Part shown: positions 52,552 through 55,024 of the stretch, one piece after another
Layout of the letters: each line of letters opens with the position of its first letter
Position numbering within the stretch: the stretch's first letter is position 1
Origin: Hydrogenovibrio sp. JE_KL2
GTDB taxonomy: Bacteria; Pseudomonadota; Gammaproteobacteria; Thiomicrospirales; Thiomicrospiraceae
Direction: 5' to 3'
Assembly (NCBI RefSeq): GCF_009296185.1
Contig: NZ_WBJR01000004.1
Location: 62,001 to 126,000 of the forward strand
DNA length: 64,000 nucleotides
Notes under the pieces: model-generated
Databases searched by the model: none
What the model was told of the DNA's origin: nothing
The model's input: only the letters and a program-made list of their open reading frames with translations
Position numbers and translations under genes: made by a program

Positions 52552-53286
52552 CTATTCGGAACAGATCATTGCCTCTTCACCAGCGAACTCTTTTAAGAGT
52601 TCTTCATTCAAAATCGAGATTTCTTTCTTTTTCCAGTTCAGCACATTTAGCTTATTGAACTTCGCCAAAATACGGGATACGGTCTCTGGTGTCAGATTCA
52701 AATAGCTTGCCACATCCCGATGCAGGATATTTAAGCGGAATTTGGTGTGGAGATAGCCTCGAGACTTATATTTCAAAGACATCGACCATATAAAATAAGC
52801 CAAACGCTGTTCAGCAGTTTTTTGTGTCAGCAGTGAAGTGTACATGCGACTGCCGACAATTTCCTGACTCATCAAACTGAATATCTGACTATATAGATTA
52901 GGGACCTGCGCAGCCAGATCGGACAGTTGTCCATAAGGAATTTCGCACACCGTGGTCACATCCAAGGCTACCGCGTAAAACTGATATTCCTGATAAGCAA
53001 TTGAATCCATCCCAACAATATCGCCAGGCAAATAGAAACCATGAATCACTTCTAGATTATTATGATCGTAAGAAAACAGCTTCACCGCCCCTGCTCTTAC
53101 TGCAAACAAGGAAGTAAATTTCTCACCTTCTTTGAACAGGTATTCTCCTTTTGATAGAGAAGGTTTACGATTCACCAACTCATCCAACTGAGACAAATCC
53201 GTATCATGAAGTCCGTTTGCAAAACAGATGCGCTGTAACCCGCAGTTCGCACAATTAGCAGTGTAATGAATGGCAATATTTCCCAT
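52552..53286 (-). CDS. fnr: FNR/Anr-type oxygen-sensing regulator
   Basis: 244 residues, CRP/FNR family. Cluster cysteines C12, C15, C21 and C114 are all present, so it can hold an oxygen-labile 4Fe-4S cluster. The recognition helix ETVSRIL keeps the E-x2-S-R pattern that reads TTGAT half-sites. It controls the oxic/anoxic switch in relatives. No clear TTGAT-N4-ATCAA box was found in the window. Confidence 0.93.
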   Translation of the reverse strand: MGNIAIHYTANCANCGLQRICFANGLHDTDLSQLDELVNRKPSLSKGEYLFKEGEKFTSLFAVRAGAVKLFSYDHNNLEVIHGFYLPGDIVGMDSIAYQEYQFYAVALDVTTVCEIPYGQLSDLAAQVPNLYSQIFSLMSQEIVGSRMYTSLLTQKTAEQRLAYFIWSMSLKYKSRGYLHTKFRLNILHRDVASYLNLTPETVSRILAKFNKLNVLNWKKKEISILNEELLKEFAGEEAMICSE

Positions 53287-53585: not shown

Positions 53586-53821
53586 AAAAACATAAGTATT
53601 TTCAACACACAAAACATTACAAATAATGCAAATATAAATATATATCAAAGGGTTACGGTATTTTTCTAGAATACAATAGCAATAAAAAAACTAATTTTCA
53701 AAAAACACTGTCAAGCATTTTCTTAAATTTATTCACCGCTTCGTTTTGGTGCGTATTCTCGTTCCAAGAAAAGTGGGTTGTGTTAAAATTCGTGCCAAAT
53801 TTGAATTTTCTCGAGGTATTT

Positions 53822-55024
53822 ATGGCAAAAATTTTAGGTATAGGAAATGCAATTCTTGACGTCATCCTGACCACAGCGCATTACCCAAGGGAAGATGAAG
53901 AACTTAGAGCCACTGAACGTCAGTTTCAAGTGGGGGGTAATGTCTGTAATTCTCTTTATGTTTTGAGCCAACTTGGACACGAAACCACTATCGCAACCAC
54001 CATTGCCAGTGACGATGCTTCAAAACAGTTGTTAAATGGCTTAAAAGCCCGACAAATTCAAACTGAACACACTCAGAGATTCATTCAAGGGCAAACCCCT
54101 ACTTCCTATGTCATTTTGAATAACGAGAATGGCAGCAGAACCATTACCCACTTTCGTGACTTACCAGAGTTGAGTTTTGACTTCTTCGCCAAAATCGAAA
54201 TCGAAGAATATGACTGGTTACATTTTGAAGGACGTAACCTAGAGCATCTTCCTGGCATGATGAATATTGCCAAGACCTTTTTGACCCACCAACCCATTTC
54301 GCTGGAAGTTGAAAAAGCAAGAGACGGCATTGAGCAGCTCTTCTCTCAAGCAAACCTACTCATCTTTTCTCACCACTATGCTGGTCAAAAAGGTTATCAA
54401 GATGCCACGAGCCTGTTAAAAGACATCAAAACGCAAGCACCAAACAGTCACTTAGTATGTACTTGGGGTAAAGACGGCGCATGGTTCTGCCCGGCGGGCG
54501 GCAATATCTCCCACCAGCCAATCCATGAAATTCCACAAACGATTGATACCCTTGGCGCCGGAGATACCTTCAATGCCGCATTGATTGACGCATTGATTCA
54601 AAAGCAAGATTTAGCAACTGCAGTAGATACCGCATCCAAACTTGCTGCAAGGAAATGCCAGCAATTCGGGTTCGATAACCTCTTGACAGAAATCAAAGAA
54701 AAACAGCCTTTGGCAAATGTTAACCAAGTCAACAACTCGAAAGTGCTGATTGTGCCTTGTGCAGATTTGCCGCACTCGGTTATTTTGATTAAGCATGAAG
54801 ATCAGGTTAAGGCGTATCAGAACAACTGCCCTCATCAAGATGTTCCGCTAAATGAAGCCTATAAGGTAGACGTTAATCCCTTTGAGAAAACGATGAAGTG
54901 CTCTGTGCATGACGCTTTCTTCTCAATTGAAGATGGTGTGTGTATTGAAGGTCCGTGCATCAATGACGAGCTAGAAATCGTCGCTATTGAAATAGATGAT
55001 AAAGGCGATATTTACCTCGCCTAA
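53822..55024 (+). CDS. PfkB-family sugar kinase fused to a Rieske 2Fe-2S domain
   Basis: 400 residues from ATG 53822, preceded by GAGG; a 14-residue upstream extension has no ribosome site. Residues 1-300 are a PfkB/ribokinase-type fold: FQVGGNVCNSLYVLSQLG near 35-52 and the catalytic DTLGAGDTFNAAL (242-254, G-A-G-D at 245-248). Residues about 307-400 form a Rieske domain with C336-x-H338 and C360-x2-H363, a complete ligand set. Neither part is truncated. The kinase could be ketohexokinase-like; the substrate and the role of the cluster are unknown. Confidence 0.85.
   Translation: MAKILGIGNAILDVILTTAHYPREDEELRATERQFQVGGNVCNSLYVLSQLGHETTIATTIASDDASKQLLNGLKARQIQTEHTQRFIQGQTPTSYVILNNENGSRTITHFRDLPELSFDFFAKIEIEEYDWLHFEGRNLEHLPGMMNIAKTFLTHQPISLEVEKARDGIEQLFSQANLLIFSHHYAGQKGYQDATSLLKDIKTQAPNSHLVCTWGKDGAWFCPAGGNISHQPIHEIPQTIDTLGAGDTFNAALIDALIQKQDLATAVDTASKLAARKCQQFGFDNLLTEIKEKQPLANVNQVNNSKVLIVPCADLPHSVILIKHEDQVKAYQNNCPHQDVPLNEAYKVDVNPFEKTMKCSVHDAFFSIEDGVCIEGPCINDELEIVAIEIDDKGDIYLA

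Follow-up and report, generated by a model that had tools for sequence, protein, structure and literature searches.

Ketohexokinase (KHK), the animal fructokinase, belongs to the PfkB family of kinases, which also includes the sulfofructose kinase YihV. Human KHK-C gave D-xylulose-1-kinase activity in engineered E. coli (PMC5029101). The Rieske ferredoxins of aromatic dioxygenases, such as those of biphenyl dioxygenase and carbazole dioxygenase, are proteins of about 105 amino acids that carry the motifs C-x-H and C-x2-H. To our knowledge there is no precedent for a Rieske domain that regulates a kinase. An earlier reading of the locus described here, made from the sequence only, had called a combination of kinase and Rieske domain an unusual architecture. 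Indeed, no paper on this combination was found in the open-licence PMC full texts, among the matches listed. Both domains are well known, and entries of domain databases listing both may exist.

The gene was found in the sulfur-oxidising bacterium Hydrogenovibrio sp. JE_KL2, within a stretch of 64,000 nucleotides that was analysed as a whole and is called the window below. Our overall interpretation, held tentatively and at somewhat less than an even chance, is that of a bifunctional protein in which a ketohexokinase-type ketose kinase is joined to a ferredoxin-type Rieske domain and is tied to redox state in Calvin-cycle autotrophs.

The fused reading frame and its conservation

The kinase-Rieske gene is located on the plus strand at 53822..55024 and comprises 400 codons followed by a stop codon (55022-55024), giving a product of 400 amino acids. 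The mechanical open reading frame begins earlier, at a GTG at 53780. The ATG at 53822 is preferred as start, since a likely ribosome-binding site read from the sequence (GAGG, 53813..53816, plus strand) lies 5 nt upstream and the aligned relatives begin there as well. Pfam recognises both halves above its curated cut-offs, the kinase domain PF00294 with 114.1 bits (cut-off 25.8, E 1.1e-32) and the Rieske domain PF00355 with 39.4 bits (cut-off 20.3, E 5.7e-10). A PfkB kinase and a complete Rieske domain in one open frame were what the sequence-only reading had claimed, and its coordinates need no change.

A frameshift, or a stop and start missed in the assembly, might merge two genes into one apparent frame, and a sequencing error of this kind had been named as the alternative to a true fusion. 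A match to the fusion is present in all 62 genomes of the family that were searched, and an order-level search gave the same 62 genomes. The protein runs from end to end without internal stop in 60 of them, that of the window included, and several of these genomes consist of a single contig. Broken copies were found in the other two. The copy of G020 (G020:C1:788428-789546) has a TAG inside and its match stops at residue 375, within the Rieske half, and the copy of G034 (G034:C180:8569-9763) falls into two pieces with stops. Because 60 of the 62 genomes share the same unbroken frame, the artefact is rejected and its probability is negligible. A collection of species contained 17 matching loci. 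Full-length fusions account for 13 of these, in records named Hydrogenovibrio, Thiomicrospira, Thiomicrorhabdus or Piscirickettsiaceae (one of them, L012, was omitted from the alignment), and the other four comprise one fusion from a Halothiobacillus MAG, two kinase-only relatives and one fragment. That the fusion and both of its domains are genuine is practically certain.

The kinase half and the Rieske half

Residues 1-286 (53822..54679, plus strand) form the PfkB domain, which is of the ketohexokinase type. Its best solved relatives by sequence are human and mouse KHK (E 4e-47, residues 3-287), followed by the sulfofructose kinase at E 2e-17. A structure was predicted from 16 aligned sequences with a mean pLDDT of 87.9 and a pTM of 0.74, the Rieske half being less certain in the model (blocks from residue 301 onward have pLDDT values of 59-86). 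With this model, Foldseek also placed KHK first (TM-score on target 0.92). Fold comparison of residues 1-291 by VIA-align gave a Z of 40.5 and an rmsd of 1.4 over 288 residues for KHK, compared to a Z of 34.8 for YihV and of at most 33.7 for entries named ribokinase. The best KHK is thus ahead of the best YihV by more than 5 Z, and YihV was rejected as the nearest solved relative since KHK is nearer by both sequence and fold. None of the best 25 of 27 NCBIfam matches reaches its own cut-off.

The positions at which KHK binds its substrate were compared in 131 kinases, consisting of 102 kinases of a class-wide sample and 29 further members of the family. D13, G39 and N40, at the positions of D15, G41 and N42 of KHK, are present in all 131 and N43 (KHK N45) in 130. 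D25 (KHK D27, contributed by the other subunit) is present in 119, including the protein of the window, and is replaced by Asn in the other 12. We take these five KHK residues to be those that contact the ketose. The GAGD motif (residues 245-248; 54554..54565, plus strand) ends with D248, which corresponds to D258 of KHK and which, by homology with the PfkB family, is presumably the catalytic base. It is kept in 130 of the 131 kinases, the remaining one having a gap, whereas the first Gly of the motif is replaced by Ala in 18. Judged from these resemblances, the kinase is likely to act on ketoses. The earlier assignment as a sugar or nucleoside kinase is thereby narrowed: a sugar kinase, ketohexokinase-like by sequence and fold, is retained, and the general sugar or nucleoside kinase is dropped.

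Recycling of sucrose or fructose was considered as the job of the fused kinase. The same genome has a second PfkB-like gene (297 aa, L019) directly after a putative sucrose-phosphatase gene (named by eye), and for this reason sucrose recycling is a poor explanation for the fused kinase and unlikely to be its function. No sucrose-phosphate genes were seen among the open reading frames at 47-62 kb of the window, which were read by eye.

A short linker (residues 287-294; 54680..54703, plus strand), defined as the gap between the Pfam matches, precedes the Rieske [2Fe-2S] domain at residues 295-400 (54704..55021, plus strand; Pfam match 295-381). The Pfam Rieske domain was matched in 14 of the 16 aligned relatives, the other two being kinase-only. 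The motifs of the predicted cluster ligands, C336-P-H338 (54827..54835, plus strand) and C360-x2-H363 (54899..54910, plus strand), occur in each of the 38 fused proteins that were examined (33 from the family and 5 from other families). Like the GAGD motif they are present as the sequence-only reading had stated. With G020 left out, both ligand motifs are invariant in 37 fused proteins, and the same holds for the further cysteines C374 and C379 of a CxxGPC segment (54941..54958, plus strand), which is also invariant in all 14 rows of a wider Rieske alignment. The CxxGPC cysteines are not known to have a role in Rieske ferredoxins.

A Rieske profile of the family, compared to solved structures, gave 11 matches, the best with an E of about 1e-5. 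Ferredoxins of dioxygenases or monooxygenases make up nine of them. The disulfide cysteines of the bc1 type are absent from the 14 aligned Rieske rows. As far as sequence comparison can tell, the Rieske half is of the ferredoxin type, with a putative [2Fe-2S] cluster. Both observations would also suit a function in electron transfer, with the Rieske half as a working ferredoxin for another enzyme, one that catalyses the step preceding or following that of the kinase, so that the fusion would tether two steps of one pathway and leave the kinase unregulated. However, the names of two of the 11 solved matches point to the cytochrome b6f type, no recurring oxygenase or reductase gene was seen in the gene clusters read by eye, among those listed, and the kinase reaction is not itself redox chemistry. 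We consider such an electron-transfer partner rather unlikely.

Pairing with Rieske genes and the gene neighbourhoods

The sequence-only reading had suggested a search for co-occurrence of the two domains. In a class sample of 369 genomes, searched with cut-offs of E 1e-20 for the kinase and E 1e-12 for the Rieske type, 102 genomes have the kinase and 143 the Rieske type, 60 of the latter with and 83 without the kinase. Position classes were assigned with a Rieske cut-off of 30 bits and a distance of -100 to 400 nt between the domains. Nine of the 102 kinases are fused, 30 are followed immediately by a Rieske gene in the same orientation, one (G304) has it directly upstream and 62 are unpaired, so that 40 are fused to or beside a Rieske domain. 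Pairs, either fused or adjacent, occur in 25 of 55 kinase families, and the fusion is also present in three families beyond that of the window. Each of the nine fused genomes has a single match of the Rieske type, which is the fused one. In a phylum-wide sample of 398 genomes, three matched at 1e-20: the window's own genome, one of the same class and, weakly, one from another class.

The Rieske type is present in 60 of the 102 kinase genomes compared to 83 of the 267 others (p 1.5e-6), and with one genome per family in 28 of 44 compared to 37 of 114 (p 5e-4). Within RuBisCO genomes only, the co-occurrence is weak (53 of 94 with kinase, 36 of 88 without, p 0.04). In 40 of the 60 genomes that carry both, the two genes are fused or lie next to each other; under an assumed adjacency probability of 2 in 2000 for each genome this would be of the order of 1e-105, although related genomes are not independent. 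The link is nevertheless optional, since 62 kinases are unpaired, with no Rieske type detected at E 1e-12 in 42 of their genomes, and since 83 Rieske genomes are free of the kinase. The Rieske type thus has a use of its own, which is also in line with a ferredoxin serving another enzyme. No kinase column convincingly distinguishes the paired kinases from the others (best difference 0.50 vs 0.15), and no interface is therefore visible.

A maximum-likelihood tree, built quickly from the 102 kinases and four further members of the family (106 in all), implied three changes to the fused state, in the family of the window, in f146 together with f158 and in f55. Strongly supported branches alone force one change, and 41 of the 103 inner branches are poorly supported. 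Three origins are for this reason likely but not firm, and according to the tree the fusion probably arose about three times. The linkers vary in both length and sequence among the fused lineages, a pattern that would be expected if adjacent genes had been joined independently.

These data bear on the question of whether the two halves cooperate at all. Independent proteins encoded side by side might have merged passively by loss of a stop codon, with no functional coupling. The kinase and the Rieske type each occur alone, and their separate genes lie close together, which makes fusion easy. Furthermore, in family f153 a similar gene string is found by eye with and without the kinase. By eye, too, in L150 and L151 a kinase-free Rieske gene lies between a large protein and an ABC transporter, and L069 is similar with the kinase included. 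Because the Rieske gene stands in the same string without the kinase in L150 and L151, some of the pairs may be neighbours simply through inherited gene order. On the other hand, the pairing is kept across different settings, identified mostly by eye, and once in reversed order. The adjacency or fusion in 40 of 60 genomes, the fusion on about three occasions and the match in 62 of 62 family genomes, unbroken in 60, also speak against a passive event, and we regard it as unlikely. Since fusion and pairing recur, a functional tie between kinase and Rieske domain is likelier than chance, although this does not amount to proof.

The settings upstream were compared for the 40 paired kinases, two of which have little or no upstream DNA. 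A large protein is encoded directly upstream of 12 of them; the one member checked has two cyclic-nucleotide-binding stretches, a rhodanese and an FGE-sulfatase-like domain. Other settings, named by eye, include an adenylate-kinase-like gene upstream in three f3 genomes, an NTF2-like gene on the opposite strand upstream in seven paired loci and an HU-like gene upstream of one paired kinase. A gene of the fnr type is found upstream in part of the window's family. The large protein corresponds to cluster c13 (L096:429-6071 and relatives), with 1386-1881 aa in six loci, and relatives of c13 were also seen by eye upstream of some kinase-free Rieske genes.

The sequence-only reading had pointed to the divergent fnr as a clue to function, for which no support was found. 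The neighbour at 52552..53286 on the minus strand encodes an Fnr-type regulator (NCBIfam Fnr, 221.2 bits, cut-off 228). Of 13 family loci, one of which (L108) has 308 nt upstream only, 8 have such a gene in the vicinity of the fusion, and it was seen in none of the paired settings outside the family. Three FNR-like sites lie between fnr and the fusion gene, with two mismatches each, and a site with one mismatch lies at 54683-54696, inside the coding region. Single sites mean little, since 99 FNR-like matches were found in the window where 61 were expected. A scan for promoters and terminators gave no excess over shuffled sequences (3 vs 5.1 and 1 vs 1.9, respectively). Control of the fusion gene by FNR was rejected, the upstream sites being poor and the best one lying within the coding region, and the divergent fnr is a local neighbour of the fusion gene.

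Several further neighbours were recorded. In eight loci with unpaired kinases (L072, L074, L079, L081, L082, L086, L089, L095) a small gene on the same strand lies 1-43 nt upstream, encoding a protein of about 100 aa or more. One of these proteins shows weak similarity to a zinc ribbon, under the Pfam cut-off, and membrane stretches noted by eye. Might the kinase have an alternative, cysteine-rich partner in this small protein? By eye, a gene resembling glycine oxidase (ThiO) was seen downstream of the kinase in L073 and L078 and a YjbQ-like gene upstream of the kinase or the Rieske gene in L101 and L168; a link to thiamine is possible for these neighbours. No metabolic operon that would name the kinase substrate was found in the neighbourhoods read.

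RuBisCO, possible function and comparison with known systems

The kinase occurs mainly in genomes that encode RuBisCO, an association that lay beyond the reach of the sequence-only reading. The large subunit was found in 94 of the 102 kinase genomes compared to 88 of the 267 others (p 8e-27, kinship ignored). Adjustment for descent, made solely by taking one genome per family, left 41 of 44 with and 38 of 114 without kinase (p 3e-12). The eight kinase genomes without RuBisCO are G063, G094, G109, G220, G269, G344, G418 and G422. Pairing is not commoner with RuBisCO, which is present in 35 of the 40 genomes with a paired kinase and in 59 of the 62 with an unpaired one. In 4 of 55 neighbourhoods a phosphoribulokinase-like gene is located at a distance of 2-4 kb (one representative checked, NF011997). 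Among genomes free of the kinase, with one genome per family, the Rieske type also leans to RuBisCO (20 of 37 vs 18 of 77), with RuBisCO in 36 of 83 genomes with and 52 of 184 without the Rieske type when all are counted; this leaning is a further point for an electron-transfer partner. For a role of the kinase in Calvin-cycle autotrophs we see the chances as evenly balanced.

The interpretation that we favour tentatively, a ketose kinase tied to redox state, can be outlined as follows. The ketohexokinase-type half would use ATP to add a phosphate at C1 of a small ketose. The substrate may be a ketose from, or leaking from, the Calvin cycle, e.g. D-xylulose, D-ribulose or D-fructose. Pentuloses of this cycle are reasonable substrates because human KHK-C served as a D-xylulose-1-kinase in engineered E. 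coli (PMC5029101). Through the Rieske cluster, in turn, the kinase would respond to the cellular redox or oxygen state, with phosphorylation going up or down. The shared fusion and the frequent pairing elsewhere suggest a possible link between redox state and the phosphorylation of sugars. Redox control of the kinase by the Rieske half, raised already in the sequence-only reading as a tie to redox state or oxygen, is plausible but somewhat doubtful.

A more specific version would be a ketose-1-kinase gated by redox or oxygen, in which the Rieske domain senses electron supply and the enzyme salvages or disposes of dephosphorylated or mis-made sugars of the RuBisCO cycle. We think this version quite improbable. 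If it were true, no earlier instance would be known to us in which a small-molecule kinase is controlled by a Rieske domain, and forms made of two separate proteins would exist across the Gammaproteobacteria. The fusion offers a handle on the role of an animal-type ketohexokinase in carbon-fixing bacteria with RuBisCO and on the question of whether enzymes other than oxidoreductases can be controlled or fed by a Rieske cluster.

Among described systems, the kinase half is closest to KHK, with which it is alike in sequence, fold and ketose-contacting positions. The sulfofructose kinase YihV is a similar kinase of the same family but clearly more distant in both sequence and fold. In contrast to the matched KHK chains, which have no Rieske domain, the kinase described here carries one; moreover, it is bacterial, 32-34% identical to KHK and tracks RuBisCO, and its activity is predicted. 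The Rieske half shares with the dioxygenase ferredoxins, which rank among the best solved matches of its profile, the two ligand motifs, the size of about 105 aa and the lack of bc1-type disulfide cysteines. It differs from them in that the similarity is weak (E about 1e-5), in the extra invariant CxxGPC cysteines and in its neighbour, which is a kinase gene, with no oxygenase seen.
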